Shown piece after piece: positions 998 to 45,818 of a stretch of DNA of 64,000 bases. The stretch is from Buxus sempervirens (Eukaryota > Streptophyta > Magnoliopsida > Buxales > Buxaceae), in assembly GCA_947561395.2 (NCBI GenBank), contig OX387187.1:34391829-34455828 (forward strand). Direction: 5' to 3'. Within the stretch, counting starts at the first letter, position 1; each line of letters begins with the position of its first letter. A program made the translations under genes and the position numbers. The notes under the pieces were generated by a model, which worked only from the letters and a program-made list of their open reading frames with translations, searched no databases and was not told the DNA's origin.

Positions 998-3212
998 CAA
1001 TCATCAAAAATCATTATCTCCTGGAAAGCCAGCACAGAATTTGAAGAAAATAGACTTTTACCTGTATCCGGATACTCATACCGGATACATGTGAGCCTTA
1101 GTGTATCCGGTACCATGTACCGGATACCTTAAGGCCCTTTTTTATCCGGCCTGATATACCGGATACCTTAAGTTTGCTCAAAATTAGGGTTTTCCGAGAG
1201 CTTTTCACTTTTACCATCATGTCCCTCATTAAATGAGGGGAAATCGCGGAAATAACCTTAGGGTTTAGGTTGGAGGGGTTCTAGACATTAAGTTGTGTCT
1301 ACCAATGACCTTAGCCTTTGCCTATAAATAGGAGCCTCCTCCTTGAGCAAATGGCACTCAACTCTTGTTTTGAATTCTCGCAAAGAAGAACTCCAAGAGA
1401 AGAAGAAAACCGCTGTGGAATCGCCTCCAGAACTCAGGTAAGCCTCAACTTTTCTTTTTATTTTCTGTCTTTACATTCCTAGATCTAGATCTCTTCTTCT
1501 ACCTTTCTATAGTGTAAAGCCTTGTTTGTATGTGTGGAAATCCTTCCCCGGCTCAAAGTATCTCAAGACTCCCTTAGCCGTAAAACGTGAAGGCGGATCT
1601 AGGAGAAACGAGACTGGGGATTGACCCTAGTGCTAGAACCTATGTAGCATAAGGCCTTTTTGATTGATTGTAAACCGTTCCATATTCAAAGTACCCTTGA
1701 TTATCTTAAAGAGAACAGAGGGAAACGATAATGGAACGGAACCCTAGGCTATGCTAGAACCTATTTTGTTGAATCTATATGCATGTGTATGGATCTTGCT
1801 TGGTTTTTCACTTTTGCACACATATTACACCTTTTTGGTGAATAGGCTCACATTTGGGGATTTATTGCATTCATTGTGATAAATCTCAAATAAATGGCCT
1901 GAATCAATTCTGGAATGCCTTTCGGATGATTTTAAAGTATTTGTGTTCATCTTGCACGAATCCCATATTTTTTTATCAATTTTCGGACTTGGATTTCTTC
2001 AAAAGTGGCTTAACTTGACAGCACCTGTACCCCTACTTCGGACGTCCGTAACTTCATCATCCGGATGAATTTTGGGGCGATTCCAGAACCATGGGAAAGG
2101 TGAGGCTGTCTAGTTTATGTCCACCAAATTTCATGAATTTCCATCTAGCCGATTTTTGACACCTCTCTGTCGAAGTTGAGTGGACAGTTCAGGTCCAAGT
2201 ACAGAACTTGTCACTTCGACGGACCGCCATGTGTTCGTTTTAAGTCCGATTCGAGTGGTTTTTATTTCTGGGTACTCCTTTATGAGTCTATTTTCAAATC
2301 CAGTTGGTTTCATAATTTTTGGATTCCATTTGAATTATTGGTAGCCGATTTACTCAGAACTGCTCATTTGCATTTTTCTGGGTAAATATGTGATCTTCGG
2401 GGCCTGTTCGGGAGACCACCCAAGGCACACCCGAAGGGATATTTGTATGAGACTAGTTTCTATAGAAATATGGCCATACAAACTTCAATCACACCAAATT
2501 TAGTGGACTTTTGTGTAGTGGATATTTCTAGACAATTTTCCAAAGTTGCCCACTTACCACTTTTAAAAATCCCCAGCAGCAACTTCAAAGGAGCATAACT
2601 CCTAGGATTTTTATCGGGTTAACTTGAGATTTTGCATGAGCTCCTTATTTATCATAATCTTTCAAATAGAGTTGGTTTGAATCAATTTGAAATTGGATTT
2701 GAATGATTTCAAGACAAAGGACCTTACTTTTTACCAAAATTCCCGGATTTGCCTCAACTTGGTTTTGGCCACTTTTACTTTGATTTCCATCTTTTGAAAT
2801 ACTCCAGAAGTGATATTGACATAAGAGAAGATCTAAAATCCATTTGGATCTTCATGTGAATATATCATACACTTGTTCCTTTTTTAAGGCTTTTTCATGA
2901 TTTTTAGCAAGCTTCTTATTTTTCTTTTTAGCATGAACATACACTTGGCAACCACTTCGTGTGGATGAATGGGGGTGCCTAACACCTTCCCCCGTTCATA
3001 ATCTAATCCCCTTACCCATCTCTGGATTTGATTTTCAAGTAGGGTTATTTTATCCTAGAATTTGTCTTTTGGCTATTTTTGCCTACTTTTGAATTCTTTG
3101 GTGTCCATTCTCACCCCAAAATCATGAATGGTGGCGACTCTCCCGTTTTTGCGTTGAGCCTGTGTGTTGACGGAGGGATGATCACTCCGGTGATTTTTTC
3201 CCATGTCTCACA
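998..3212 (+). repeat. B left LTR
   Basis: It is nearly identical to 39647-41924 apart from its missing tip, one palindrome unit (39 bp) fewer, and one strongly different patch near 1893-2025. A TATA-like CTATAAATA lies near 1322 and a CAG|GTAAGC splice donor near 1437. It ends TCTCACA before the primer site. Adding the 24 hidden bases gives 2239 bp, exactly 39 less than the 2278 bp of the right LTR. Confidence 0.85.
1064..1166. repeat. Palindrome array, 3 units at 39-bp phase (B left LTR)
   Basis: 25-bp palindromes start at 1064, 1103 and 1142, each with GTATCCGG-like and CCGGATAC arms and 14-bp spacers. This array has one unit fewer than the matching array in the right LTR. Confidence 0.9.
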
Positions 3213-3841: not shown

Positions 3842-3931
3842 TGTAGACACCCCAAATTGCACAAACAATCATCAAAAATCATTATCTCCTGGAAAGCCAG
3901 CACAGAATTTGAAGAAAATAAATTTTTGCCT

Positions 3932-4073
3932 GTATCCGGATACTCAATCCGGATACAAGTGCTCCTCCCCGTATCCGGATGGTCATACCGGATACGTGTG
4001 AGCCTTAGCGTATCCGGTATCATGTACCGGATACCTTAAGGCCCTTTGTTATCCGGCCTGATATACCGGATAC
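3932..4073. repeat. Palindrome array, 4 units at 39-bp phase (A left LTR)
   Basis: Four 25-bp palindromes start at 3932, 3971, 4010 and 4049, exactly 39 apart, with 14-bp spacers. Arms are GTATCCGG(T/A/C) and its complement around 7 central bases. The same array is repeated at 20064-20205 in the right LTR. It lies about 155 bp upstream of the TATA box, so it is in the promoter (U3) part of the LTR. Confidence 0.95.
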
Positions 4074-4229
4074 CTTAAGTTTGCTCAAAATTAGGGTTTT
4101 CCGAGAGCTTTTCACTTTTACCATCATGTCCCTCATTAAATGAGGGGAAATCGCGGAAATAACCTTAGGGTTTAGGTTGGAGGGGTTCTAGACATTAAGT
4201 TGTGTCTACCAATGACCTTAGCCCTTGCC

Positions 4230-4350
4230 TATAAATAGGAGCCTCCTCCTTGAGCAAAAGGCACACAACTCTTGTTTTGAATTCTCGCAAAGAAGAACTC
4301 CAAGAGAAGAAGGAAGCCGCTGTGGAATCGCCTCCAGCACTCAGGTAAGC
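4230..4350 (+). promoter_or_regulatory. A LTR TATA box and leader splice donor
   Basis: CTATAAATA at 4230-4238 is a strong plant TATA box, placing transcription start near 4262. About 80 bases further, CTCAG|GTAAGC (cut at 4344/4345) is a consensus 5' splice site, conserved in B and C (C: GTAAGC complement at 58019-58024). Together with the conserved acceptor just before gag it predicts an intron of about 5.2 kb in the leader. Inference from consensus and conservation. Confidence 0.7.
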
Positions 4351-5869
4351 CTCAACTTTTCTTTTTATTTTCTGTTTTTACATTCCTAGATCTAGATCTC
4401 TTCTTCTACCTTTCTGTAGTGTAAAGCCTTGTTTGTATGTGTGGAAATCCTTCCCCGGCTCAAAGTATCTCAAGACTCCCCTAGCCGTAAAACGTGAAGG
4501 CGGATCTAGGAGAAACGAGACTGGGGATTGACCCTAGTGCTAGAACCCATGTAGCATAAGGGCTTTTTGATTGATTGTAAACCGTTCCATATTCAAAGTA
4601 CCCTTGATTATCTTAAAGAGAACAGAGGGAAACGATAATGGAACGGAACCCTAGGCTATGCTAGAACCTATTTTGTTGAATCTATATGCATGTGTATGGA
4701 TCTTGCTTGGTTTTTTCACTTTTGCACACATATCACTATTTTGGCGGGATAGGCTCATATTTGGGGTTTATTGCATTTATTGTGATAAATCTCAAATAAA
4801 TGGCCTCAATCAATTCTGGAATGCCTTTCGGATGATTTTAAAGTATTTGTGTTCATCTTGCACGAATCCCATATTTTTTTATCAATTTTCGGACTTGGAT
4901 TTCTTCAAAAGTGGCTTAACTTGACAGCACCTGTACCCCTACTTCGGACGTCCGTAACTTCATCATCCGGATGAATTTTGGGGCGATTCCAGAACCATGG
5001 GAAAGGTGAGGCTGTCTAGTTTATGTCCACCAAATTTCATGAATTTCCATCTAGCCGATTTTTGACACCTCTCTGTCGAAGTTGAGTGGACAGTTCAGGT
5101 CCAAGTACAGAACTTGTCACTTCGACGGACCGCCATGTGTTCGTTTTAAGTCCGATTAGAGTGATTTTTGTTTCTGAGTAGTCCTTTATGAGTCTATTTT
5201 CAAATCCAATTGGTTTCATAATTTTTGAACTCCATTTGAATTATTGGTAGCCGATTTACTCAGAACTGCTCATTTGCATTTTTCTGGGTAAATCTGTGAT
5301 CTTCGGGGCCTGTTCGGGAGACCACCCAAGGCACGTCCAAAGGGATTTTTGTATGAGACTAGTTTCTATGGAAAGATGGCCATACGGACTTCAATCACAC
5401 CAAATTTCACGGATTTCTATTTAGTGGATTTTTCTAGACAATTTTCCAAAGTTGCCCACTTACCACTTTTCAAAATCCCCAACAGCAACTTCTAAGGAGT
5501 ATAACTCCTAGATTTTTCACCGGAATGAAGTGAAATTTTGCATGAGACTCTTGTTTACCCTAATCTTTCAAATAGAGTTGGTTTGAATCAATTTGAAATT
5601 GGATTTGAATGATTTCAAGACAAAGGATCTTGCTTTTTACCAAAATTCCCGGATTTGCCTCAACTTGGTTTTTGCCACTTTTGCTTTGATTTCCATCTTT
5701 TGAGATATTCCAGAAGTGATATTGACATAAGAGATGATCTAAAATCCATTTAGATCTTCATGTGAAAATATCATACATTGTTCCTTTTTCAAGGCTTTTT
5801 CATGATTTTTAGCAAGCTTTCTTACATTATTTTTTGCATGAACATACATTTGGCAACCACTTCGTGTGG

Positions 5870-5904
5870 ATGAATGGGGGTGCCTAACACCTTCCCCCAT
5901 TCAT
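5870..5904. repeat. Conserved stem-loop near LTR 3' part
   Basis: ATGAATGGGGG (5870-5880) is the exact reverse complement of 5894-5904, around a GTGCCTAACACCTT-containing loop. The same element is present in B and C; where B and C have C to G-type change the pair becomes G-U. A 'GGTGCCTAACACC' motif is, to my recollection, common in Ogre-type LTR ends. Confidence 0.75.
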
Positions 5905-6120
5905 AATCTAATCCCCTTACTCATCTCTGGATTTGATTTTCAAGTAGGGTTATTTTTATCCTAGAATTTGTCTTTTGGCTATTTTTGCCTACTTTTGTAT
6001 CTTTGGTGTCCATTCTCACCCCAAAATCATGAATGGTGGCGACTCTCCCAATTTTTGCGTTGAGCCCGTGTGTTGACGGAGGGACGATCACTCCGGTGAT
6101 TTTTTCCCATGTCTCACAAC

Positions 6121-6138
6121 TGGCGACTCTGCTGGGGA
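6121..6138 (+). other. A primer binding site (tRNA-Arg type)
   Basis: TGGCGACTCTGCTGGGGA two bases after the LTR end; this is the Ogre/Tat type site, complementary to the 3' end of a tRNA-Arg. Confidence 0.88.
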
Positions 6139-7594
6139 CCTTTGTGGATTTAAGCCATTTTGTGTATATTCATGATTTTTCATCACTTTTGAATGCTTGC
6201 TATTCTGTTTGTTTTATTTGTGCACAATGTGGTATTCCAAATCAGATTAGGATGCTTAGAAATTTGTATGGATCCAAAGCCTATGTTGAAACATGATTTG
6301 GATGTGTTTTGTGATGACATGCTTTGATTTAAGTTGTTATGCCATAAAAAAGAAATTTTCAAAATCTGGAAATTTGGTGTAAATTTTGAGTATTCAAGCA
6401 TGTTTCCCATGAATAATACTTTTTGTGCTTAATGGTTGTTTTATGCCATGATTTGAACTTGGGGGTATGGAATGACATAAGTTGAGCATGAAAACAATGA
6501 AAAGAAAAATCTGAAATGCTTAGTGGGAATTTTGGGGATTTTCAAGCATATGTTTCCCAAGCTAAAAGCTTTTTATGTCATATTGTTAGCTTCTGGGTTT
6601 TAGGCTTGGATTTGGGCATAAAACCATGTCACTTGAGCATCCAATTGAAAAAAAAAATCTGAAAATTTTAGTGCATATTTCTGGAGATTTCAAGCATGTT
6701 TTACCTCATTGAAACACTTTTGAACCATGTCAAGTAGGGCAAAAATTTTAGGCTTCAAGTTGGGTAGAAATGGTACACTTTGAGCATGAAAAAGAGCATG
6801 AAATCTGGAATTCTAGGAATGCTTTTGGGTTTCAAGCATGCTTACATGAGTTGATTGTTGTTTGCACAAATAACATGTTTTGTATACCACTTTTTGGGCA
6901 TGTAATATTTTTGTGCATATTTGGTGCTTGCTTTCTTGTATGTAGCTTCATTATTTTGTCATATATGCCTTGGCTTGAAATTGAATGCATGGCTACGAAA
7001 AAGAGTGGCAAGGGGCTGGGACGTTGTGAATGTTACCACAATTTAAAATTGCACTTGAGCACTTGAAACAATTTGCACAGCCTACCCTTTACCTATTAGG
7101 AAGTTGAACCATGAATGTGTGTAGCTTGGCGCACCGAGGTCGTGACTTCGGAAAGCGAAAGTGAAAACATTTACCTTAGAATTTGGGTCAATGATGTGAT
7201 GACAATGGGATCTGTGATTCGATTCCGGGCATCACTAGACTTGAGTTCTAAGTTGCCAATTAAGCCAAAACCCAAAAACCATACGCTTGAAGGTGGAGAA
7301 ACACGTTTTCGGCTAAAAGCACACAATTGCGTTTGGGGAATTGGGTGTAAATGTGGGAAGGCCGTTTGCATGTTTTACAGGCCAAGGTATAATGTGAATA
7401 CCATATTGAATGAAGGTAATACAAGGTGGCAAGGTAAAACCATGTTCTTTTCATGAATTTGGGGATTTTGCAAATATAATGTCCAAGCCCAATTCGGGGC
7501 AAGTTTTGAAGGTCAAATTAAGGTGAACATCAATTGGGAATGAAAAAAAATCAAATCTGGTGAAAAAAATGAGTCAAAAAAGGCCATTTCGGCA
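6139..7594 (+). mobile_element. A leader with conserved block 7120-7456
   Basis: The first kilobase is AT-rich and diverged. The block at 7120-7456 is far better conserved between A, B (22645-22984) and C (54660-55010, minus) than its surroundings. A frame starting MTMGSVIRFRAS (ATG near 7199) stays open in all three through a Cys-containing CKCGKA segment and has no family I recognise. It could be a small leader protein (Ogre elements are known to have an extra ORF here) or a structured packaging region, since it lies inside the predicted leader intron and so only in unspliced genomic RNA. Confidence 0.55.
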
Positions 7595-7736
7595 ATAACC
7601 GGCAACTCAGGCCGGTTAATAACAGCTCTAATCATATCCGGTACATATTTCCGGATACAAAGACATATGCGTGAATCCGGTTATGGTAACCGGATACAAT
7701 AAGGCATATTATTATCCAGAATGTTATACCGGATAC
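7595..7736. repeat. Palindrome array, 4 units at 39-bp phase (A leader)
   Basis: Units start at 7595, 7634, 7673 and 7712. The first has arms AACCGGC/GCCGGTT around loop AACTCAG, a loop also found in arrays of B, C and the D family. The later units have GTATCCGG-like arms. It is separate from the LTR array of the same element and has B and C counterparts at 23121-23262 and 54185-54326. Confidence 0.93.
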
Positions 7737-8028
7737 GTTCAAAAATGCACAAATTGGCTTTTCAGCCCAAGTTTTCAGAATAAAATGCCTAAAACACTGT
7801 GGATCATCCTTAGGCACCCCGAAAAGAACATAAAAAATGTTCCAAAAAAGAAAAAAAAGAAAAACAAACAAAATAAAATATTATTTCAGGATTTAACCTA
7901 AGTTTGAAAATCAAAGAGGAAACCAAGGTGTCATATTTTTTGACACCAACTCAACTCAAACATGTGTCAATCAAACTCTGGAACTTGAAAACTAAGAAAA
8001 TTCAGCAAATTTGAAGAAGAAAGAAAAA

Positions 8029-9440
8029 ACCTTTGGTTGGTTATTTTTATCAATCAAATCAAAAAAAAAATGAAAACCTTGGTTGGTTATTTTTATCAAT
8101 CAAATCAAAAAAAGTGGGACACTTGGAAGCCCTAGAATATTCCATGAAAACCTTGGTTGGTTATTTTTATCAATCAAATCAAATAAAAAAAAATGAAAAC
8201 CTTTGGTTGGTTATTTTTATCAATCAAATCAAATAAAAAAAAATGAAAACCTTTGGTTGGTTATTTTTATCAATCAAATCAAAAAAAAAAATGAAAACCT
8301 TGGTTGGTTATTTTTATCAATCAAATCAAAAAAAGTGGGACACTTGGAAGCCCTAGAATATTCCATGAAAACCTTGGTTGGTTATTTTTATCAATCAAAT
8401 CAAATAAAAAAAATGAAAACCTTTGGTTGGTTATTTTTATCAATCAAATCAAATAAAAAAAAATGAAAACCTTTGGTTGGTTATTTTTATCAATCAAATC
8501 AAAAAAAGTGGGACACTTGGAAGCCCTAGAATATTCCATGAAAACCTTGGGTGGTTATTTTTATCAATCAAATCAAATAAAAAAAAATGAAAACCTTTGG
8601 TTGGTTATTTTTATCAATCAAATCAAATAAAAAAAATGAAAACCTTTGGTTGGTTATTTTTATCAATCAAATCAAAAAAAAATGAAAACCTTGGTTATTT
8701 TTATCAATCAAATCAAAAAAGGTGGGACACTTGGAAGCCCTAGAATATTCCATGAAAACCTTGGTTGGTTATTTTTATCAATCAAATCAAATAAAAAAAA
8801 ATGAAAACCTTTGGTTGGTTATTTTTATCAATCAAATCAAAACATTTGTGGGATACTTGGATAGAGTAGTCCAAGACACCTTTGGTTGGTTATTTTTATC
8901 AATCAAATCAAAACATTTGTGGGATAATTGGAAGCCCTAGAATATTCCAAGACACCTTTGGTTGGTTATTTTTATCAATCAAATCAAAACATTTGTGGGA
9001 TACTTGGATAGAGTAGTCCAAGACACCTTTGGTTGGTTATTTTTATCAATCAAATCAAAACATTTGTGGGATAATTGGAAGCCCTAGAATATTCCAAGAC
9101 ACCTTTGGTTGGTTATTTTTATCAATCAAATCAAAACATTTGTGGGATACTTGGATAGAGTAGTCCAAGACACCTTTGGTTGGTTATTTTTATCAATCAA
9201 ATCAAAACATTTGTGGGATACTTGGAAGCCCTAGAATATTCCAAGACACCTTTGGTTGGTTATTTTTATCAATCAAATCAAAACATTTGTGGGATACTTG
9301 GATAGAGTAGTCCAAGACACCTTTGGTTGGTTATTTTTATCAACCAAATCAAAAAAAAAAAAATGAAAACCTTGGTTGGTTATTTTTATCAATCAAATCA
9401 AAAAAAAATTGGGACCCTTGGAAGCCCTAGAATATTCCAA
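8029..9440 (+). repeat. Hairpin-forming tandem repeat before gag (A)
   Basis: About 23 copies of a unit with TTTGGTTGGT, a short TATTTT-rich loop, then ATCAATCAAA. These arms pair fully in the sense RNA with two G-U pairs. Alternating spacers carry 'ggaagccctagaatattcca' or 'tggatagagtagtcca'. Open frames run through the array, but the frame and protein differ in B and C, so I do not call a protein. Confidence 0.85.
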
Positions 9441-9559
9441 CTCAAAACAAAAAAAAAACAAAAACAAAAACAAAAATTTTTTTCTGGCTGGTGTTCACCT
9501 AACCTACTGGTTTACATTTATAGGTGTATGACTCAAATTAAATGGGAGCTGACATGTTT

Positions 9560-9580
9560 CTTTGCTTTTCCTTACTCAGG
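9560..9580 (+). other. Predicted splice acceptor before A gag
   Basis: A pyrimidine run ends CTTACTCAG|GTACATT. The same CAG|GTACATT boundary follows a pyrimidine run in B (24902/24903) and C (near 52886, minus). It pairs with the LTR donor at 4344. Confidence 0.6.
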
Positions 9581-9645
9581 TACATTCAACCCAGGTGCAC
9601 TTATTTGCAGTCATTGCTCCCGTGACCAGATCCAAAGCAAGAGCC

Positions 9646-12600
9646 ATGAATACTGAAGAGAACCAAGCCCAAGCTACCGTCCCCGCTCAGGACTTTACTC
9701 AGCTGCAGGAGCAAGTGGCCGGTCTGGCCAAAATGCTAGGGGACCTACTGGCGGCTCAGGCCCAACAGGCCCAAGCCCCGAACCAGGCATCTACTTCCCA
9801 TCAGGCACCACCACCTCAGGCCTACATTCCGCCTCCGGTTCAGCCCATGCCTGAGCCCATTTCTGAACCAGTCCCTGAACCCATTCTGATCAGGGAAAAT
9901 ATGGCGGAGTCTGAGAAAGAGCTGGAGAAAGAAAAGGCCCGAGATGAGATGGAAAAGAAAATGCTGCTGAGGATAGAGAGGATCCAGGCAGAGCTGAAAG
10001 AGGTGAAGGGGGGAGGCAGCCATGCAGGCACCACCTTCGAGGACCTGTGCATGTACCCGGACGTCTGTCTACCGGCTAAGTTCAGGTGCCCAGATTTCGA
10101 CAAGTTTGATGGCACGGGCTGCCCATTAAGCCATCTGAAATTATACTGCGGGGCCCTGTGCCAGTTTGGCCGGGACGATGGAATACTGATCCAGCTCTTC
10201 CAGAGGAGTCTGACAGGGTCAGCCCTTCGGTGGTTCGCTACAGTGGACCATGGAAGGATTAGAAGGTGGAAGGACTTGGCCGATGCTTTCCTGGACCAGT
10301 ACAAGTTCAACTCTGAGATCGTGCCGGACCGGTACGACATGATGAGGATGACCAAGGGGAAGGATGAACCGGTACGGCAGTACGCCAAGAGATGGAGAGA
10401 GGCCGCCTCCCAGGTCAGGCCACCTATGCAAGAGCCGGAGATGATCTCCACCTTTATGGGCACACTGGGGCAGCCCTTTTACAACCATCTGGTGGGTCAG
10501 ATAACCACCAACTTTGCAGCCCTAGTGCAGGTGGCGGACCGGATCGAGGAAGGGGTCAGGTCAGGAAGGCTGATAGACTACTCTACTCTGACTGGGCAGT
10601 CTGATTCCTCTGCCTCCATGGCCCAGAAGAAAGGGGCCGGATTCAAAAAGACGGGGGTCCGAAAAGAAGGGGATGTGAACCTGGTCCAGGCTCCTCCAGC
10701 CAAGAAGCCACTGCACGTGAACATCTCGGCACCCCAACAGGCCCAGCAGGCCCAGCAGTCATACCAGACCCCGCTGAATGTCAACTTCCCTCCCTCTGTG
10801 CCAGCTAACACAAGGAGGACTTTTTCTAAGGAGGAGCGGGATGCCTGGTTCGCAGCAAGAAAGAACCGGGTTTTCACCCCTCTACCCATATCTCTTTCCC
10901 AACTACTGCCAACCCTGCTGAAAGGGGAATACTTGACTCTGAAGGAGCCTAACCCGAATGCCACCAGGGGATGAAATTTTGACACATCGGTCACCTGTGA
11001 CTTCCACATGGGTGCACCAAGGCATTCTACTGATAATTGCTGGGTGCTGAAGCATGCGGTCCAGGACCTGTTGGACCAGAAGGCTTTGGTCTTTAACACT
11101 GCTGCACCCGCCCCGTCGGGAAATGATATTGGGCAGAACCCTCTGCCGTACCACAATGGGGCAGGCCCATCCAACTCCATCACTGCCATATCCACCACCA
11201 GAAGGGCCTTTGACCCATCACAACTTATAGCACCAGTAGGGACCACTGTCCAGGTCCATTTTTTCCCAGAGGAGGACGAAGAGGAGATCAACATGGTCTC
11301 CCAAAAAAATAATAATCTTGTTGCTGAGGACATAAGTTCCTCTCTAAACCGGGTCTCTTCACTCATGGCCCAGATGAATACTGCAAGACCCCCATTGGTC
11401 TTCAATTGCAGTCCACCCACTTATTCCCCATCCAAGCCGTCTAAGGCTCCACTGGTCATCAATCTTGACCCCACCACTGCTTCCATCACTTCTTCTGTCC
11501 CCACCAAATCCAAACTTCAACCCCTGGTTGTAAATGTGCAGCCAGCCCATGCTATCCCTAAACCGGCCCATACATCCCGGTCCAAACTCCAGCCACTAGT
11601 GGTTGACATCCCTAAATTAGCCTATTCAGAGGCCGCTGTACCATGGAACTACAGCGAGGGAATCACGGCTACGGTTCCAATGGTCAGGAACCAGAACCAG
11701 GAGGAGGTGAACCTCATGACGAGGTCGGGGAGATGTGCAGGGGGTGAAGAGAAAGAAAAAGAGACAGAAGCGGAGAAAGAAAAAAGAGAAAATGAAGAAA
11801 AAAGAAAACAGAAAGGAAAAAATAAAGTAGGAGAAGACACCCCCCAGGGTGCAGAAAATGAGGCAGCCGACCTCATAAAAATAATAAAGAAAAGTGAATT
11901 TAATCTTGTGGATCATCTAAACAAGGTCCCGGCCCAGATTTCAATACTGGGCCTTTTGCTGAATTCAGAAAAGCATAGGGATGCATTGTTAAGGGTGCTA
12001 CAGAGTGCACACGTATCCCAGACAATTGATCCAGACCAGCTTGGTAAAATGGTTGGTCAAATCTTGTCACATAATGTGATAAGTTTCTCAGAGGGTGAGA
12101 TCAGCCCAGGTGGGTGTTATCATGTGGACCCTTTGCACATCACTGTGCTTTGTAAGGGCTGCATGGTTGCACGGGTTTTAATCGACAACGGGTCAGCGTT
12201 AAACGTTTGCCCGTTAATCACTTTTACCAAGCTGGGCCTGGACCAGTCAAGGATCAAACGGAATGGGCGGATAGTGAGGGCTTTCGATAGCTCCAAGACC
12301 CACTCCCTAGGGGAGATTGAACTGCCGGTCACAATTGGGCCGAATATCTTTAACATCACATTTGAGGTGATGGATATACCCGCAGCCTTCAATCTGCTCC
12401 TAGGAAGGCCGTGGATACATTCGGCTAGGGCAATACCATCCACGCTCCACCAGAGGGTGAAATACGTAAGAGGGCAAAGGGTGATAACAGTCCTAGCCGA
12501 AAACTTGGTGCCGCCCATTGTGTCACCTGATGTACCATTAATCAATGTGGACTTGACTGTCGACAAGATTGCATTCCACTCATTTCAATTTGAGGCGGTA

Positions 12601-13353
12601 AATTACATACCTGGCGGGTGTGAGAAAAAGAAAGAAAAGGGGACCACTGCAGAAAGGATGGTCAAGAAAGTGATGGAGAAATACCACTTTCACCCAGGGA
12701 AAGGCCTGGGGATCAATCTGCAGGGGATGGTGGAGCCAATCACGGCTAAGAAACTGATCCCCAAAGTAGGGTTGGGCTTCAAGCCCAGAGGCTGGAGAAG
12801 AATGAAATATGAAGAAGGGGAGAGCAGAAGCAAAGGAAAACTCCCTCATTTAAGAGAAAGTTTCCCCAAACCCTCCTATATAATCCAAATTTCTCCTCCC
12901 ATGGACCAATCAAAACCTCCCTACTACAATGTCAACCCATTTCAAAAGCCTTCTGTTTCGGCCCTACAACCCTATAACCCATCTCCAATACTGGGAGCAG
13001 TGGATGGGCCTGGACCACAGCCCGAGCAGCAGGTGGACTTTTCTGAAGATGTTGGTGCATTCTTCGCCATGACGGAAGGCGAAAAGACAGGGGCAGACAT
13101 GGAACTGCCATTTATTGACTGGGCTGCAGTAAAGATTCCAGACAAGGTCATTTCTGGACTGGGCCCCGCAGCAGAAAAGGGCAGTACCCACCCGGTGATG
13201 ATGGCATCGGATGCTGGGCTTGAGGAGCAGGCTTTCCCTATTTCCCCTGCTCCCCAAAATTTTGTACTGAACAATTGGGAGGAAACTCCCCTTACTTTTG
13301 AAGCAGCGTCTGTGTGGCAAACTGACGCGGCTTCCAAAAAAAAACTCCAATAG
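9646..13353 (+). CDS. gag-pro: A gag-protease region
   Basis: Gag begins at the ATG of MNTEENQAQA, the start shared by A, B and C just after the splice acceptor. It has a Gln/Ala/Pro-rich N-terminus, a charged coiled-coil stretch (about 9900-10010), the retrotransposon gag core (HLKLYCGALCQ ... LTGSALRWF, about 10130-10580) and a Cys/His knuckle-like CDFHMGAPGH (about 10997). A Lys/Glu-rich linker follows near 11740-11830, then the aspartic protease with active site DNGS (about 12184-12195, Tat-type variant of DTG) and a G-patch-like motif GKGLG...GLGFKP (about 12700-12790). It forms the particle core and matures it. Broken in about one place. Confidence 0.88.
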
Positions 13354-16300
13354 TGGAATGCCATTTCCCTGAAAGTTCTAATGGGCCTTCGTCTTCAGGG
13401 GAATTATGTTTAGAAGGCCCACAAAAAACCCAAAAAGATTTTTCTATTTTTTCTAGAAAATTTAATTTTTTCAAAAAGGTCCAAACCACTTATGAGCCAT
13501 ACAATCAGACCGAATTGGACCAGGTTGAATATGACTTCGACCTTGAGCTCGACTTTGATCTCATGGGGGTCGAAGAAGAGACCGAGGTCGAAGAAGAAGA
13601 CGTTCCAAAAGAAATTGAATACCAATTGGAACGTCATGAAAAGGGGGTCCAACCTAATATTGAGGAGACCATATCCATAAATCTTGGGACCGAAGAGGAC
13701 CCAAAAATTGTAAAAATCGGGTCATGCTTGTCTGATGTGCAGAAAAATGAAATGTCACAATTCTTGGCAGATTACAAGGATGTGTTTGCTTGGTCGTATC
13801 GGGACATGCCGGGGTTGGACACAGACATGGTGGTGCACAAGTTGCCAATTTTGCCAGGGGTTAAGCCGATTAAGCAGAAGCTGAGAAGATTGAAACCTGA
13901 GTGGACTCTGAAGGTCAAAGATGAAGTGGTCAAACAGTTCCAAGCCGGATTTTTGGCAGTCTCTACGTACCCAGAGTGGCTCGCAAACATAGTGCCGGTA
14001 CCCAAGAAGGACGGGAAAGTCCGAATGTGTGTGGACTATAGAGACTTGAACAGGGCAAGCCCAAAGGACGATTTTCCGCTTCCACACATCGACATTCTGG
14101 TCGATAATACTGCGGTACATAGCCTGTTCTCTTTCATGGATGGGTTCTCGGGATATAATCAGATCAAGATGGCTAAGGAGGATCAAGAGAAAACAGCATT
14201 TATCACACCTTGGGGGACATTCCACTACACAGTCATGCCGTTTGGGCTTAAGAACGCCGGGGCAACATACCAGCGGGCCATGACTGCACTATTCCATGAC
14301 GTGATCCACAAGGAGATGGAGGTCTATGTGGACGATATGATTGCCAAATCATGCAAAGAGGAGGACCACTTGATCAATCTGAAGAAAGTGTTTGATCGGC
14401 TCAGGAAGTACAGTTTACGGCTTAACCCGGCTAAGTGCGTCTTTGGGGCTACATCAGGAAAGTTACTGGGGTTCATAGTGAGCCGAAGAGGAATTGAAAT
14501 CGACCCGGCTAAAGCCAAGGCCATAATTGAAATGCCAGCACCCAGAACTGAGAAGGAGGTCAGGGGTTTTCTTGGAAGGATTCAATACATAAGCCGGTTC
14601 ATAGCACAGCTCACTGCTATCTGTGAACCAATTTTCAAACTTTTGAGGAAAGATAACCCGACGGTCTGGAATGAGGACTGCCAGCAGGCATTTGATACAA
14701 TAAAAAGGTATTTACTGAACCCGCCGGTACTAGTGCCACCAACTCCAGGAAGACCACTGATCCTATACTTGTCAGTGTTGGAAACGTCGATGGGATGTGT
14801 CTTGGGGCAGCATGATGAGACTGGTAGAAAAGAAAGGGCAATTTACTATCTGAGTAAAAAATTCACAGAATATGAAGCTAAGTATTCATCATTGGAAAAG
14901 ACTTGCTGTGCTCTAGTGTGGGCCACTCAGAGGCTAAGGCATTATTTCCTTAGTCACTCCACACTATTGATATCCCGGATGGACCCGCTGAAGTATTTAT
15001 TTGAAAAACCGGCACTGACTGGCAGAACGGCTAAGTGGCAATTGCTACTGTCCGAGTTTGACCTCACATACATCACCCAGAAGGCGATCAAGGGTCAAGC
15101 CATAGCTGATCACCTGGCTGCACATCCTTTGCCAGAATATCAACCCTTGAAGACCAACTTCCCAGATGAGGCAATTCTGTACACTGAAGAGGAAAACAGT
15201 GAGAGTTCTTGGCAGATGTTCTTTGACGGGGCAGCCAATATGAATGGGAACGGAATAGGGGCAGTCTTGGTCAAACCAGATGGTTCACACATCCCAATTG
15301 CAGTAAAGCTGAGATTCCAGTGCACCAATAACATAGCAGAATATGAGGCATGCATAATTGGATTGCAAGCAGCCATGGATCATGGAGTAGAGGAACTTGA
15401 CGTATATGGGGATTCGAGTCTTATCATCTTCCAAACAACTGGTGAGTGGAAAACCAAGGATCACAAATTGATCCCCTATCACCAGTATTTGGAAGAAATA
15501 AGCACAAATTTCACTCGAATTTCCTTCAACTATATGCCCAGGGCCAAGAATCAGTTTGCGGATGCTCTAGCAACCTTGGCTTCAATGGTCAGCATATCAG
15601 AAGGAGTAGACATCAGACCACTGGAAATTGAGGTCCGTGATGAACCGGCTTACTGTCTCGTTCTAGAGGGAGTGCCAGAAGAAGAAGCACCATGGTTTCA
15701 GGATATCAAGAACTTCTTAAATAATCGGAGTTTGCCAGAAAATGCCACTGCTACTGAGAAGAGGACAATACAGAGATTGGCTGGTCAATTTCTGCTAAGT
15801 GGTGGACATGTGTACAAGAGGTCGCATAACGACATTCTGCTAAGATGTGTAGCCAAGGCTGAATCGAAAAGGCTGATTGAGACTGTACATGGAGAAGTCT
15901 GTGGGCCCCATATGAGTGGGCACATGCTGGCAAAGAAGATCCTGAGGCTAGGATATTACTGGACGACCATGGAGCACGATTGTTGTATACATGTCAGGAG
16001 GTGCCATCAATGCCAAATCTATGCAGATAATAAGCATGCACCCCCAGGTGAGCTGCACAACATGACATCACCCTGGCCCTTCTCTATGTGGGGCATAGAT
16101 GTCATCGGCATGATCTCCCCTAAGGCATCGAACGGACATAGATTCATCCTAGTGGCGATTGACTATTTCACTAAGTGGGTGGAAGCAGCTTCATATGCGA
16201 ATATCACAAGCAGCCATGTCATTAAATTTTTGAAGCACAACATTATTTGTCGCTATGGACTGCCAAGTGCCATAGTATCAGACAATGCTTCAAATATTAA

Positions 16301-16940
16301 GAACAAGGACATGAAGAAAATGTGTGAGCAGTTTCAGATCACCCACCACAAGTCAGCTCCGTATAGGCCAAAGATGAATGGGGCAGTAGAAGCAGCCAAC
16401 AAGAATATAAAGAAAATCATTCAGAAGATGGTAGTGAGCTACAAAGATTGGCATGAAATGCTGCCACTTGCTCTACATGCCTACAGAACCTCGATCCGGA
16501 CTTCAACGGGGGCAACCCCGTACTCCCTAGTCTATGGAATGGAAGCAGTCTTGCCAGTGGAAATAGAAATCCCGTCACTCCGAGTGCTCATGGAAGCAGA
16601 ACTAGAAGAAGCCGAATGGGTCCAATCAAGACATGATCAACTTAACCTGATAGAAGAAAAGCGGTTGAAAGCGCTTTGCCATGGACAGTTGTACCAGAAG
16701 AGAATGGCCCGGGCTTACAATAAGAAAGTGAGGCCCAGAACTTTCCAAGAAGGAAACTTAGTGCTAAAGAAAATCTTACCATTTTTGGAAGATCCTCGTG
16801 GTAAGTTCAAGCCCAATTGGGAAGGCCCATATGTCGTCAAGAAAGTCCTGTCAGGGGGTGCACTCATCTTAGCAGAAATGGATGGGTCAGATTTTCCTGA
16901 GCCCATTAACTCTGATGCGGTAAAAAGGTATTTTCCTTGA
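13353..16940 (+). CDS. pol: A pol: RT, RNase H, archaeal-type RNase H, integrase
   Basis: Uninterrupted for 1195 codons. Order: acidic N-terminus; RT (about 13950-14640, catalytic YVDD at 14324-14335); Ty3-type RNase H (about 14740-15130); a second, archaeal-type RNase H (about 15200-15590, FFDGAAN, AEYEA, GDSS, ADALA); integrase with HHCC finger (about 15870-16030) and D-D-E core (GIDVIG, VSDNAS, GAVEAAN); GPY/F-like C-terminus ending at 16937. The duplicated RNase H is the known hallmark of the Tat lineage. Pol lies in another frame than protease with a short overlap; Ogre elements are known to splice an intron between protease and RT, which may apply here. Confidence 0.95.
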   Translation: MECHFPESSNGPSSSGELCLEGPQKTQKDFSIFSRKFNFFKKVQTTYEPYNQTELDQVEYDFDLELDFDLMGVEEETEVEEEDVPKEIEYQLERHEKGVQPNIEETISINLGTEEDPKIVKIGSCLSDVQKNEMSQFLADYKDVFAWSYRDMPGLDTDMVVHKLPILPGVKPIKQKLRRLKPEWTLKVKDEVVKQFQAGFLAVSTYPEWLANIVPVPKKDGKVRMCVDYRDLNRASPKDDFPLPHIDILVDNTAVHSLFSFMDGFSGYNQIKMAKEDQEKTAFITPWGTFHYTVMPFGLKNAGATYQRAMTALFHDVIHKEMEVYVDDMIAKSCKEEDHLINLKKVFDRLRKYSLRLNPAKCVFGATSGKLLGFIVSRRGIEIDPAKAKAIIEMPAPRTEKEVRGFLGRIQYISRFIAQLTAICEPIFKLLRKDNPTVWNEDCQQAFDTIKRYLLNPPVLVPPTPGRPLILYLSVLETSMGCVLGQHDETGRKERAIYYLSKKFTEYEAKYSSLEKTCCALVWATQRLRHYFLSHSTLLISRMDPLKYLFEKPALTGRTAKWQLLLSEFDLTYITQKAIKGQAIADHLAAHPLPEYQPLKTNFPDEAILYTEEENSESSWQMFFDGAANMNGNGIGAVLVKPDGSHIPIAVKLRFQCTNNIAEYEACIIGLQAAMDHGVEELDVYGDSSLIIFQTTGEWKTKDHKLIPYHQYLEEISTNFTRISFNYMPRAKNQFADALATLASMVSISEGVDIRPLEIEVRDEPAYCLVLEGVPEEEAPWFQDIKNFLNNRSLPENATATEKRTIQRLAGQFLLSGGHVYKRSHNDILLRCVAKAESKRLIETVHGEVCGPHMSGHMLAKKILRLGYYWTTMEHDCCIHVRRCHQCQIYADNKHAPPGELHNMTSPWPFSMWGIDVIGMISPKASNGHRFILVAIDYFTKWVEAASYANITSSHVIKFLKHNIICRYGLPSAIVSDNASNIKNKDMKKMCEQFQITHHKSAPYRPKMNGAVEAANKNIKKIIQKMVVSYKDWHEMLPLALHAYRTSIRTSTGATPYSLVYGMEAVLPVEIEIPSLRVLMEAELEEAEWVQSRHDQLNLIEEKRLKALCHGQLYQKRMARAYNKKVRPRTFQEGNLVLKKILPFLEDPRGKFKPNWEGPYVVKKVLSGGALILAEMDGSDFPEPINSDAVKRYFP

Positions 16941-17876
16941 GTGAATATTCCTAGGAAATGATCCGAGGCCATTTTTCTTTATTTCCTTCAAAATTTCAAT
17001 CCCTAGTCTAGCCAAGTTGAGCCGGTTCGTTTCTTTGATCAACCCAAACCGGATTTACAGTCAAATTGGGGCAAAATCAATTGGAGCAAAAGTGAGGAAA
17101 GAAAAAGAAAAAGAAAGGAAAAGCAATGGAAATGGCAAATGAAAGCCAAGTGTGAAAAAAAAAATGCAAAAAAAATGCAATTTGGGGAAAAAGGGTTAAA
17201 TTCATCATGACTGTAAGTCCGGTTGACCTATTTCCACACTTGAAAATTTTTGGGCCTTTAATACCCTTTCTTTCATAAACTGAGCCTAGCCTTTATTTCG
17301 TCCTATTTTTAAGCCCTCGGTGATCTTAGCTTGTTCATTTAAATATCAGAGTAAGATGGGTGACGACGGAATTCAGAAGCCGGCCCTAGTGAAAACCGTA
17401 ACTGGCGCTAGGGGCAATATTGGCAAAAAGGCAAAAAGAAAAAAAAGAAAAATGAAAGAAAATCAGAGGTTGAGTTGATCATGGGGATCTGAGCTTCAAG
17501 CAAAGTGGGCATGAGCAGAATGGGGCAGTTTTGGCCGTTGGGGATGACTCTAAAGGTCCTAAGATGGACGGTTCTGATCCCTCAGTATTTTCTGGACTAC
17601 CCTTTTCATTATTTAACCTAGTTCTAATTCCTTTAATTATAGGTGATTAAGTGCATGGACCAAATTTCAAAAAATACAAAAAAAATATAAAAAGAAAAAT
17701 TATACTTTGGCCAGTGATGAGAAATCAAATACTTTTCATAAAACCTTTGTTTTTACAAGCATCTGAGCATTCTGAGGCCAATAATATAAAAATTTTATTT
17801 TGAATTAAATCCTTTGTCTTTCCACTATTGGAGTTCAATTTTGTACAAAGGTATGAAAAATGTGCAGGAAATAAAG
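16941..17876 (+). mobile_element. A 3' non-coding region after integrase
   Basis: Matches 32260-33200 of B closely. It holds Lys-type purine runs and a conserved 'ccggccctagtgaaaaccg' / 'ggcgctaggg' segment (about 17380-17410). No coding region seen. Confidence 0.7.
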
Positions 17877-18761
17877 CTAATCTCCTAGCCGCTCCTCAAG
17901 CTCCCGAATCCGAGCTGCCTGAGCTGCAATGACTCCTGAAGCCCCCTCTGCAGCGGGATCACTCAGGAAGGAAATGACCTCATCTGAAAGGGCCTGCCTG
18001 ATCCGCATACTCCTAAGGCTGGCCAAAGTATCCTGGTACTTCTGCCGGATCATACGGACCTCAAAGCGACGGGCCTGCCTCTGCTCCTCCAGCTTCTCTT
18101 CCACGGCAGTACGGCGTGAGATCTGCTCCTCAAGCTGCCTCTCCAGATAAGCACCCTGTATCCTGAGCTCCTGGGCCTCCCGCACCCATATTTGCTGAAG
18201 CCGCTTATGAGAAGCCCGCTCAGACTCTAGAATGTCCTCATAGGTGGGAGCCAAGACTACAGGAGGATCTTCAGGTACTGGGGCCTGAGTCTGTATCTGC
18301 TCCTTGATCCAGAAGAGATAATCCTTCACATGGGCTTTTGAGAAGACCGGACCATGCATAAAGCGGACATAGGACCACTCCTTCATCAACCAGGCATTCA
18401 GCTTCATAGAAAGGGGCCCAAGACGATCCTCATATCCACATGGGATGATAATCCCCTGGGTCGCACGGAACTGACGAAGGACCCGCAGAGGAAGATAAAG
18501 CACTGCATGCCTCAGGCCAGCCAGAATCAGAAAGTTGCGGTCTCGGAAGCTAATCACTGTCTCCGCATTAGGCTGATAAGTACCAGGCCATCTCACGTGG
18601 TCATCCTGAAGCGAGCCCAAGAAAGTGAACCAGCCCTGTTTGCCCCCTGGAATATCGGGGCACCCCCGGTTGCTCATCAAGATGGGGACCTTCAAACTTG
18701 GGAAGAAGTGTCGATTGATTTCTTCAATCTGACTCAGATGATCAAGTAGCCAAAGCTGCAA
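17877..18761 (-). CDS. A antisense accessory gene, DUF7745-like (short form)
   Basis: An open frame of 294 codons opposite to gag-pol. The first 160 residues carry LWLLDHL, a W-rich region and LILAGLRHAVLYLPLRVLRQ, the pattern I know from DUF7745 / plant-mobile-domain-related proteins found in plant genomes and retroelements. Residues about 170-294 are a charged coiled coil ending ARIRELEERLGD. An acceptor-like TTTGCAG lies at its upstream edge, so it is probably a last exon; A carries a shorter form of the gene than B (33202-34859). Extra antisense ORFs downstream of integrase are known for Tat elements; their role is unknown. Family assignment is from memory of the motifs. Confidence 0.65.
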   Translation of the reverse strand: MQLWLLDHLSQIEEINRHFFPSLKVPILMSNRGCPDIPGGKQGWFTFLGSLQDDHVRWPGTYQPNAETVISFRDRNFLILAGLRHAVLYLPLRVLRQFRATQGIIIPCGYEDRLGPLSMKLNAWLMKEWSYVRFMHGPVFSKAHVKDYLFWIKEQIQTQAPVPEDPPVVLAPTYEDILESERASHKRLQQIWVREAQELRIQGAYLERQLEEQISRRTAVEEKLEEQRQARRFEVRMIRQKYQDTLASLRSMRIRQALSDEVISFLSDPAAEGASGVIAAQAARIRELEERLGD

Positions 18762-18779
18762 AGAAAGAGAGATATATCA

Positions 18780-18806
18780 GCACATTGTAAAAAGAAAAAA
18801 GCAAAA

Positions 18807-18871
<65 letters not shown>

Positions 18872-18951
18872 AAGAAAAAGAAGCAAAAAGAAAGCAAAAA
18901 AGCAAAAAAAGAAAGCAAAAAAGCAAAAAGAAAGCAAAAAAAAAAAAAAGC

Positions 18952-18991
<40 letters not shown>

Positions 18992-19010
18992 TTTTACCTG
19001 CAGGTTATGG
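18780..19010. repeat. Poly-A / (A,G)-rich tract and (AT)n
   Basis: A long A run (about 18807-18860) passes into aaagc-type repeats and a short (AT) run near 18970-18991. It sits where B instead carries the rest of its antisense gene region. Confidence 0.9.
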
Positions 19011-19228
19011 GCAACAATGGCACATACATCATTATTGAGAGAGCAAGAAGATGAAGAAGCAAAAGCAAGTTGCAGAATATTCAACCACAGGTTTGGGCAT
19101 CAAATGCACCCAGGTAAATCAATCAGGAAAATTCAATAAATATTTCCTTCCTTATTGTTGAAAAACATCAAAAGCAATTGAGTTTGTAGAGGTCAATTTT
19201 AAATCCACATTCTTTCAAAATTTGCTTG

Positions 19229-19274
19229 TCTCAGATTTCTTTTCATAGCCACGAGAGCTCAAAGAAATCTGAGA
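19229..19274 (+). repeat. 3'-UTR stem-loop 1 (A)
   Basis: TCTCAGATTTCTTT pairs perfectly over 14 bp with AAAGAAATCTGAGA around an 18-base loop with core AGCCACGAGAGCTC. The same loop core recurs in two further stem-loops with other stems. Confidence 0.8.
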
Positions 19275-19449
19275 TAAGGAAGAGATGCCACCCCGTCAGA
19301 CTATACACAGCAGGGGTTTCATTGGCTATCTTCAAATCCATGTTTTTTATCACTCATTTGTTTGACCAAAGCAAGTTCAATTAATGAGATGTCTTTCAAA
19401 CGTGCAATTTTGAGTTGTGTCTATTTTGTGCTGTTCATTGTGTTACAAC

Positions 19450-19560
19450 TCCAGCGAAGAGGGGAAGTTGTAGACACCCCAAAAATTGCACGATTTTTGA
19501 TAAATCTTGAAGGAAAGGAATATATTATTGGAATTCTTTGCATTGGGTTTAAAAAGGAGC
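19450..19560 (+). mobile_element. Fossil polypurine tract / LTR-start junction inside A
   Basis: GAAGAGGGGAAGT directly followed by TGTAGACACCCCAAAAATTG copies the layout of the real junction (AAAGAGGGGCAGT then TGTAGACACCCC at 19961-19985). About 30-60 bases later the sequence switches to the A/B-type 3' UTR. It reads as the end of a related element fused upstream of A's own 3' end, for example by template switching. Confidence 0.65.
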
Positions 19561-19610
19561 AAAAAGAAATGTGCTATAAATTCTACTATTTTTTCTCAAA
19601 ATCCTATTGT

Positions 19611-19660
19611 TGTCTTGAAATCCACCTCACAGCCACGAGAGCTCTGTGGAATTTAGGACA
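19611..19660 (+). repeat. 3'-UTR stem-loop 2 (A)
   Basis: TGTCTTGAAATCCAC pairs with GTGGAATTTAGGACA over 15 positions in RNA, counting two G-U pairs and one mismatch. The 20-base loop has core CAGCCACGAGAGCTC, as in stem-loop 1. B has it at about 39282-39331. Confidence 0.75.
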
Positions 19661-19755
19661 ACTTTGGGAAATGTGCCTGGTCAAAAGGATGATATCCACT
19701 CAATTTTCAACTTGGTTTAATAAAAAATCAGTTTTTCAAAAATCCTATTTTTGGG

Positions 19756-19800
19756 CTTAAAATCCACTTCACAGCCACAAAGGGCTCAGTGGAATTTAAG
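19756..19800 (+). repeat. 3'-UTR stem-loop 3 (A)
   Basis: CTTAAAATCCACT pairs with AGTGGAATTTAAG with one mismatch; the loop reads TCACAGCCACAAAGGGCTC, a variant of the loop shared by stem-loops 1 and 2. The B copy is at about 39428-39472. Confidence 0.75.
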
Positions 19801-19960
19801 AACTCTTGGAGAGATGCCCCCTTAAAGTGAGGGTTTTTTGGCAAATCTCCACTCAAAAATGGTTTTCTACAGAAATTGAATTGAACCGAGCAAATCATGC
19901 TCAAGGGAATGCAATTTGGGCTTGTCTACTCTTTGCAGCTCACTGCTTCGCAGCTCCCAC

Positions 19961-19973
19961 AAAGAGGGGCAGT
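19961..19973 (+). other. A polypurine tract
   Basis: AAAGAGGGGCAGT directly before the right LTR, primer for plus-strand DNA. The identical tract precedes B's right LTR at 39634-39646. Confidence 0.85.
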
Positions 19974-23120: not shown

Positions 23121-23262
23121 ATAACCGGCAACTCAGGCCGGTTAATAATAACTGTATTCATATCCGGTACATATTTCCGGATACAAAGACATATGCGGAT
23201 ATCCGGTTAGGGTGACCGGATACAATAAGGCATATTCTTATCCGGTATATTATACCGGATAC
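23121..23262. repeat. Palindrome array, 4 units at 39-bp phase (B leader)
   Basis: Units start at 23121, 23160, 23199 and 23238. First unit: AACCGGC, loop AACTCAG, GCCGGTT. Spacers are 14 bp. Orthologous to 7595-7736 of A. Confidence 0.93.
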
Positions 23263-34859: not shown

Positions 34860-34875
34860 ATCCCGAGGCTGGTTG

Positions 34876-34884
34876 CATTTATAG
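34876..34884 (-). promoter_or_regulatory. TATA box of antisense gene 1
   Basis: On the minus strand CTATAAATG lies 17 bases upstream of the predicted ATG at 34859 and 11 bases downstream of the last palindrome. It nearly repeats the CTATAAATA of the LTRs. Confidence 0.65.
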
Positions 34885-34895
34885 CATCTTTTAAC

Positions 34896-35037
34896 GTATC
34901 TGGTAACTCAGACCGGATACAAAAGGCTTTATGCATATCCGGATAAGTATACCGGATACAAAAGGTGGCACGAGTATCCGGTATGATATACTGGATACAA
35001 AGACCAATCAATGTATCCGGTATATCAGACCAGATAC
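34896..35037. repeat. Palindrome array, 4 units at 39-bp phase (antisense gene 1 promoter)
   Basis: Units start at 34896, 34935, 34974 and 35013. Arms GTATCCGGT-type, central loops AACTCAG, ATAAGTA-like, ATGATAT, ATATCAG. Located immediately upstream of a TATA box and gene that run on the minus strand. Confidence 0.93.
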
Positions 35038-35215
35038 CAAGGAAAAATGCAGAAAAGAGCTGAGGATGAAAAAAATCCGAATTTTTTACCTGTTTTACCT
35101 GCTTACATGCCATAATTGCATAAAATTGGGAACAAAAGACGTGCAAGACAAGATAGAATGAATAAAAAGTTTTTTTCATATATATATTCAAGTTTTTGTA
35201 CAAGGAATGATAAGA

Positions 35216-39005: not shown

Positions 39006-39083
39006 TTATAAAACATGGGGGATCCGGATACTCAGACCGGATAACTGCAGGCCATGGATTATCCGGATACATCTACCGGATAC
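39006..39083 (-). promoter_or_regulatory. Antisense gene 2 promoter: TATA box plus two palindromes
   Basis: TTTTATAAG on the minus strand (39006-39014), directly next to palindrome units at 39020-39044 and 39059-39083, again 39 bp apart. This repeats the array-then-TATA layout of antisense gene 1. Confidence 0.65.
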
Positions 39084-43311: not shown

Positions 43312-43375
43312 GTATCCGGCCTTAGTTGCCGGATACATACAGGCCATAGGTGATCCGGCCTGAGTTGCCGGATCA
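43312..43375. repeat. Two palindromes 39 bp apart (D2, downstream array)
   Basis: Units at 43312-43336 (arms GTATCCGGC/GCCGGATAC, loop CTTAGTT) and 43351-43375 (TGATCCGGC/GCCGGATCA, loop CTGAGTT). Perfect arms; the loop is the complement of AACTCAG in A and B. Confidence 0.92.
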
Positions 43376-45559: not shown

Positions 45560-45818
45560 TTTTATAACAATTTTAATGTATCCGGACTTGGAGTCCGGAT
45601 ACACTATATACCATGTGTATCCGGCCTCCATGTCCGGATACACTATATACCATGTGTATCCGGCCTCCAAGGCTGGATACACTATAATTGGCAAAAATTA
45701 ATTCCGCCACGAATTTGTCGGGGAATCGACGCGAATCTCGCCGAGCAAATCTTCGTATCCGGCCTTGAAGTCCGGATATACATAAGGGTATGTGTATCCG
45801 GTATATTTGACCGGGTAC
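45560..45818 (-). promoter_or_regulatory. D2 promoter: five palindromes then TATA box
   Basis: Units start at 45578, 45617 and 45656 (39 apart) and at 45755 and 45794 (39 apart). On the minus strand they precede TATAAAA at 45560-45566, with 11 bases between the last unit and the box. The layout matches the antisense gene promoters of B. Confidence 0.75.

Follow-up and report, generated by a model that had tools for sequence, protein, structure and literature searches.

Palindrome arrays with a 39-bp step as probable promoter modules of Ogre-like LTR retrotransposons in Buxus sempervirens

The 64-kb stretch of Buxus sempervirens DNA analyzed here (the window) contains 48 units of a 25-bp palindrome, each with two 9-bp arms around a 7-bp centre, that are grouped in 14 arrays with a 39-bp phase. 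The steady signature of these arrays is CCG-N11-CGG repeated at the 39-bp step, and most of the arrays have a promoter placement, an observation that is new here. On balance, the sequence pattern argues somewhat in favour of the arrays being promoter cis-regulatory modules of Ogre-like elements that bind a sequence-specific, probably dimeric factor.

The window, from an assembly of 676.5 Mb, consists mostly of nested Ty3/gypsy LTR elements (Table 1). Element B, which is flanked by a 5-bp CATGC duplication, is nested within element C, whose 3' LTR occupies positions 39647–41924, and element E lies on the minus strand with an LTR at about 58551–56200. A profile search of B and C gave matches to Retrotrans_gag, RVT_1, RNase H and rve in Ty3/gypsy order, and the pol dN/dS between the two is 0.04. 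D-type LTR-like sequences of approximate extent (roughly 14–951, 42300–46600 and 48758–52012) are probably LTRs, as indicated by the primer-site-like TGGCGACTCC at their ends. Given that 57% of Ogre elements are reported to have the plant mobile domain (PMD), in the part of the source drawn on here (PMC6317226), the label Ogre-like (Tat clade, Ty3/gypsy) appears fair for B and C, whose match to DUF7745 is, in B, at E 0.1 only. The antisense-gene frames of B and C overlap by only 13 codons. The antisense PMD frame, used as a protein query, gave no match at E 1e-5, the TRP28 domain (PF04195), found as an antisense gene in 97% of clusters of the Retand lineage, had no match in the 20 open frames scanned, and no Rfam family was detected in the window at gathering thresholds.

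Several other features of these elements were observed. Element B is without several kilobases of C (18815–19551 as compared with 34146–39221), including both antisense promoters and their arrays; its near-identical LTRs suggest that it was nonetheless recently inserted. A G-patch domain lies between gag and RT in open frames 10975–13353 and 25914–28691. A tandem repeat with a period of ~147 bp adjoins the D-type sequences three times (41940–42254, 46053–46457 and 48758–49179). Long tandem repeats in the 5' internal regions (23573–24744, 8026–9440 and 53025–53892) have an inverted repeat in most units; its arms in C, TTGATTGGT..ACCAATCAA, are CCAAT-box like, and those in B, compared by eye, have two G.T pairs and have lost the CCAAT words.

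Table 1. Palindrome arrays, TATA-like sequences and element features in the window
Feature	Position	Strand	Remark
Element B	3842..22250	+	LTRs 3842-6118 and 19974-22250, 99.5% identical; CATGC target duplication on both sides
U3 array, 3 units, element C 5' LTR	1064..1166	+	first unit missing relative to 3' LTR
U3 array, 4 units, element B 5' LTR	3932..4073	+	
TATAAATA	4230..4237	+	157 bp downstream of B U3 array; same at 1323, 20362, 40035
INT array, 4 units, B 5' internal region	7595..7736	+	no TATA found nearby
U3 array, 4 units, element B 3' LTR	20064..20205	+	
INT array, 4 units, C 5' internal region	23121..23262	+	no TATA found nearby
Antisense open frame of C	34065..34907	-	DUF7745 passes its cut-off (E 7.9e-10), PMD falls short of its own (E 1e-5)
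TATAAATG	34876..34883	-	12 bp past AS1 array on antisense strand
AS1 array, 4 units	34896..35037	.	promoter-like region, antisense DUF7745/PMD gene of C
Antisense open frame, PMD segment	37155..37502	-	E 3e-7, below curated Pfam cut-off
TATAAG	39005..39010	-	9 bp past AS2 array on antisense strand
AS2 array, 2 units	39020..39083	.	promoter-like region, second antisense gene
U3 array, 4 units, element C 3' LTR	39737..39878	+	
D2 array, 2 units, downstream part of D-type LTR-like sequence	43312..43375	-	no TATA found nearby
TATAAAAG	45559..45566	-	11 bp past D2 array
D2 promoter-proximal array, 3 units	45578..45680	-	
D2 distal sub-array, 2 units	45755..45818	-	lies at a 99-bp offset, ~104 bp in several relatives
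D1 array, 4 units, arms TGATCCGAC, GTAGCCGAC	50923..51064	+	no TATA found nearby
INT array, 4 units, element E	54185..54326	-	TATAAAT 14 bp beyond
U3 array, 4 units, element E LTR	58307..58448	-	TATAAATA 168 bp downstream at 58139

A sequence-only reading of the window had located the module at 14 starts, and it is present at all of them. As that reading also held, four units are typical, with four in 9 of 14 arrays, three in 2 and two in 3. A weight-matrix scan, which describes and does not test the module since the matrix was built from 44 of its own units, placed all 48 units within the 14 arrays; three weaker matches outside them (18028, 33359 and 38943) look like chance. The first scan for 9-7-9 inverted repeats was run without the weight matrix, and among 9-bp inverted repeats with at most one mismatch and centres of 0–30 bp a centre of 7 is the most frequent (70), followed by a centre of 9 (66). 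Of 101 steps between consecutive strict units (window, L009 and L027–L066), 88 measure 39 bp and 10 more measure 78 or 117 bp, from missed units. The arrays at 45578 and 45755 do not form a single 39-bp register but are two sub-arrays, with the offset given in Table 1 separating the start of the last unit from the start of the next first unit. The step corresponds to 3.71 turns at 10.5 bp per turn, so that, of the proposal of a dimeric factor on one DNA face, the dimer is retained and the shared face is not.

The 26-array U3 sets used below, like the tree of 27 U3 arrays, leave out 7 of 34 matches as broken or chance (W+1322, L025, L028, L036, L047, L059 and L062), and they are also without W+20361, the second LTR of B. 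In element sense, AACTCAG is the commonest centre of unit 1 (11 of 26 U3 arrays), and the centre of unit 4 is CTGATAT or CTGACAT in 19 of the 26. The recurrence of AACTCAG or its complement, as originally described, thus partly reflects the strand of the element. A fixed direction of the AACTCAG centre in element sense is ruled out by L027 and L050. In L050, the centre of unit 1 (411–435) is the exact inversion of the B/C centre (TTGAGTA versus TACTCAA); the string of this unit recurs at C1:4254832, probably the other LTR of the same element.

Some arrays differ in unit number or in single arms. The C 5' LTR array (1064–1166) is one 39-bp unit shorter than the C 3' LTR array (39737–39878), and L059 has an array of two units only. 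Changes in one arm are seen as CCAAC for CCGAC in D1 and CTGG for CCGG in D2 (50962, 51001 and 45656), as is expected of CG decay. At L015 (1056–1183), palindromes with arms TTTACCGGA/ACCGGTTAA and TTTACCGAA/TTCGGCTAA are 39 bp apart and keep the CCG core, and a third palindrome lies nearby, out of phase.

The module is abundant in the genome. Exact copies number 20,444 for GTATCCGG-N9-CCGGATAC, 6,516 for GTATCCGA-N9-TCGGATAC, 1,204 for GTAGCCGR-N9-YCGGCTAC and 11,447 for the 39-bp junction CCGGATAC-N14-GTATCCGG, and the reversed control of each has 0; because the counts are large while all reversed controls are zero, the module is independently confirmed. A tile sample contained 13 phased pairs at 39 bp, 12 of them from four overlapping loci, and the next most frequent spacing was 42 bp (6 pairs). 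Loci L027–L078 were fetched around pattern matches (L067 around L014) and form a non-random sample. On C1, the order of matches at 7559207, 7562946, 7574411 and 7579712 fits the U3, INT, AS1 and U3 arrays of one element, and the second and third, once fetched, class as INT (L068) and AS1 (L069). Eight viral contigs with one match each were judged to be at about chance level, by estimate, and were dropped. Among the open-literature titles and abstract openings searched, there was no description of 39-bp-phased palindromes in Tat/Ogre elements.

Array classes were set by the similarity of flanks to those in the window, the arrays themselves being excluded. In the U3 (LTR) class, TATAAA is found 155–168 bp downstream in 36 of 39 arrays (5/5 in the window and 31/34 fetched), the exceptions being L047, L058 and L061. 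In the AS1 (antisense PMD) class it is 12 bp away in all seven members (window 34896, L029, L031, L033, L065, L069 and L075), and in the D class it is 11–12 bp away in eight of nine (window 45578, L044, L046, L072, L073, L074, L076 and L078, but not L077), several of which have a layout of 2+3 units. The D arrays at 43312 and 50923 have no TATAAA within 20 bp. In the INT class (window 7595, 23121 and 54185; fetched L035, L040 and L068), TATAAA is within 20 bp only in the E copy, one of six, and B and C read CACAAAT there; for AS2, the single relative fetched, L045, gave no TATA. An outward TATAAA within 20 bp occurs in 8 of 57 arrays as compared with 1.7 expected (Poisson 4e-4, for copies that are not independent). 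Because members of one class are related by descent, it is the count of classes that provides independent evidence, and three promoter classes with a steady TATA distance are clear, together with L014/L067. This pair represents a tile stretch at a round-number position that matches no class; its arms are AACCGYA..TRCGGTT with a 7-bp centre, its steps are a mixture of 28 and 39 bp, with a single one of 39 bp, its TATA is at 12 bp, and L014 was found with a filter requiring CCG. The distance from array to TATA varies from class to class. A role in DNA is favoured because, at antisense promoters, the distance from the array to an opposite-strand TATA is constant.

The description of a recurring module that keeps its geometry while its sequence changes is upheld. 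In 82 half-sites of the window, taken by position, C stands at base 5 in 78 and at base 6 in 79, and G stands at base 7 in 77. Pairwise identity among the 26 U3 arrays is 94% in the core and 96% at bases 1–4, both raised by locus choice, since loci fetched for an exact GTATCCGR unit owe part of their conservation to ascertainment, and it is 51% at bases 8–9, 63% in centres, 57% in spacers, 62% in the upstream flank and 85% in the downstream flank. The fast divergence extends past the array, because the 90 bp upstream have diverged as much as the centres and spacers. A comparison of B with E gives 66% identity in the U3 array and 84% in the rest of the LTR (Fisher 4e-7), with no indel in the array, although the absence of indels is by itself weak (P 0.19 and 0.04); the INT arrays of B and E have no excess divergence (Fisher 0.32).

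Base 8 of the arm is G in 44/44 half-sites of B/C, counted in six arrays with the LTR duplicates at 1064 and 20064 left out, and in 14/14 half-sites of D2, whereas it is A in 12 of 16 half-sites in the two arrays of E (with 3 G and 1 C) and in 7 of 8 half-sites of D1. This CCGG to CCGA switch runs through separate arrays of one element. Plain cytosine decay fails to explain it, because in the equivalent CCGG context base 5 is seldom T (3/16 in E and 1/8 in D1; Fisher 0.001 and 0.01).

In the reading that we favour, each unit would present two CCG half-sites in the fixed inverted geometry CCG-N11-CGG, repeated every 39 bp, to which a candidate factor, probably a dimer, would bind, and arrays of about four units may give dense or cooperative binding. 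The factor, which the host or the element itself may encode, would act at the LTR promoter and at the promoters of antisense genes, and perhaps also from the 5' internal region, to activate transcription or relieve silencing. The CG inside each half-site could render binding sensitive to methylation. The sites would evolve in concert, and their symmetry may gain from hairpin-mediated self-copying of the arms. Against this model, a reader of half-sites needs no matched outer bases, yet some units match them.

The extent to which paired arms change together bears on this point. The sequence-only reading held that they do, but two phenomena are mixed in that statement, an array-wide switch at base 8 and the symmetric replacement of single units. 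At base 8, the correlation in 227 sampled units is 0.67 between partner arms, as compared with 0.72 between facing arms and 0.52 between outer arms of adjacent units, and at base 9 agreement is 76% between partner arms and 68% between facing arms, with 46% expected. Genome-wide, base 8 is mixed between partner arms at 3,432 of 30,392 sites, as compared with about 12,000 expected under independence, and the facing arms of adjacent units have GG in 11,447 cases and are mixed in 2,050. The behaviour of base 8 is thus closer to that of a word recognized in every unit by an agent that acts on them all than to that of a stem pair, and shared family history alone yields some of the pattern. On the tree of 27 U3 arrays, the rate of co-change is 0.25 for partner arms, 0.17–0.19 for the same position in other units and 0.07 elsewhere, and the excess for partner arms has P = 0.21 by permutation of unit labels. 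Of the three comparisons, on the tree, at base 8 and at base 9, two favour partner arms slightly, but not clearly.

Single-unit replacement is seen at base 4, where both arms of one unit share 7 of 11 departures and neighbouring facing arms share 0 of 11 (Fisher 0.004; 7/12 versus 0/12 with base 4 left out of the unit filter). The symmetric cases represent about three events (TAACC in INT unit 1, GTAGCC in D1 and GTAGCC in L072), and a fourth symmetric event, TGATCC in D unit 1, is at bases 1–2. A lack of covariation beyond descent, named beforehand as a refuting result, is thus seen on the U3 tree but not at base 4 across all sampled arrays. The base-4 replacements and the inverted centre of L050 suggest either occasional hairpin-mediated copying of arms or selection for symmetry in single units.

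These same cases are what would be expected if mutation itself kept the symmetry, hairpins formed during replication or reverse transcription letting one arm template the other and tandem duplication having made the array. At base 2, too, departures are shared by partner arms in 2/7 and by neighbours in 0/6. Such self-templating, however, explains neither the placement of TATA nor one base switch across arrays more than 3 kb apart; at base 1 it leaves no trace of sharing between partners (7/63 versus 4/56), none of 42 core departures, taken with a filter that does not demand CCG, is common to both arms, and at bases 1–7 on the U3 tree there are no two-sided changes as compared with 31 one-sided. 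As a full account of the arrays we consider it unlikely.

RNA hairpins were among the original proposals and could serve in the genomic RNA, for example in packaging, dimerization or 3' processing. The arrays lie inside the element and would be present in its RNA, their folding z-scores are −5.2 to −10.1 in all six arrays tested, and 897 of 972 arm pairs in the 27 arrays are Watson–Crick. Strong folding is, however, expected of any palindrome array, and the minimum-energy structures of 6/6 arrays each contain some pairing between arms of different units, even if self-folding of unit 1 or 3 is frequent. The pair-specific covariation at the variable bases 8–9 is unclear, and pairing losses in element sense comprise ~18 G.U and ~26 A.C, with no G.U excess, in a test made weak by the dominance of decay in dead copies. 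These results do not bear out the proposal, and with the antisense-promoter arrays holding their distance to a TATA on the other strand it becomes very improbable. Extruded cruciforms, or another structure that excludes nucleosomes near promoters and in which sequence is unimportant, would account for the constant lengths of arms and centres, the symmetric arm replacements and the one inverted centre, but a purely structural role predicts neither the steady CCG core nor the base-8 switch across arrays, and we give this explanation little credence. That the arrays have no function and hitch-hike on successful elements is consistent with the tolerated loss of units in inserted copies (C 5' LTR and L059) but is hardly credible, as diverged copies retain the same geometry and TATA spacing despite turnover in their spacers and centres.

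For the favoured reading of the arrays as sites for a DNA-binding factor, the closest working analogy is VANDAL/VANC, and the arrays may be regarded as a transposon regulatory motif array. In the parts of the sources drawn on here, VANDAL elements have tandem motifs in noncoding regions; a protein of the element itself binds these motifs, which have diverged from one family to another (PMC5735166, PMC10398659). The likeness extends to a short noncoding motif in several arrays per element of one transposon family, as in Arabidopsis VANDAL21 and VANDAL6, and to a motif that differs between related families and diverges fast (PMC5735166, PMC10398659); noncoding motif arrays that diverge between families are likewise found here. 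Unlike the units described here, the VANC21 motif YAGTATTAY is, in the portion cited, arrayed in one orientation and is not a palindrome of fixed geometry (PMC5735166). VANDAL is moreover another class of transposon that, by the same partial accounts, encodes its own binder, whereas the elements here are LTR retrotransposons and not VANC-encoding transposons, and the binder is only a candidate.

Other plant systems resemble the arrays in part, as far as the cited passages describe them. The BII boxes of tobacco Tnt1 are protein-binding promoter boxes in the U3 of a plant LTR retrotransposon, and U3 is the fastest-changing part of Tnt1, but the boxes are in the LTR only, the word palindrome is absent from both texts, and these passages describe no 39-bp phase or use in antisense promoters (PMC3316501, PMC1838419). 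The Retand elements, which are likewise long and are related, have both antisense genes and tandem repeats in the interval from pol to the 3' LTR, for which a regulatory role has been proposed; their genes carry TRP28, whereas those here carry PMD/DUF7745, and no promoter palindromes are described for Retand in the cited passages (PMC11963269). In Arabidopsis, the genes that need MAIN/MAIL1 share a promoter motif, 'DOWN', and the activity of the PMD family is linked both to such a motif and to the silencing of transposons, again in the portion of the source used here; MAIN and MAIL1 are host genes, for which the cited passages describe no direct binding to DNA (PMC7156037).

By its position and by the MAIN/MAIL1 link to a promoter motif only, the antisense PMD protein is a candidate binder. 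By analogy, antisense PMD proteins might bind the CCG-N11-CGG arrays of their own element, activating or de-silencing it, with protein and sites co-evolving by family, although we regard this as a rather long shot. If true, LTR retrotransposons would have invented a VANC-like self-recognition in which the antisense promoter driving the binder bears a target array of its own. Elements of the long Ogre-like type are common in plants. The module, common to sense and antisense promoters and present in tens of thousands of genomic copies, provides a defined bait for the controlling protein, and it lets one ask whether retrotransposons mark themselves for activation, as VANDAL transposons do.
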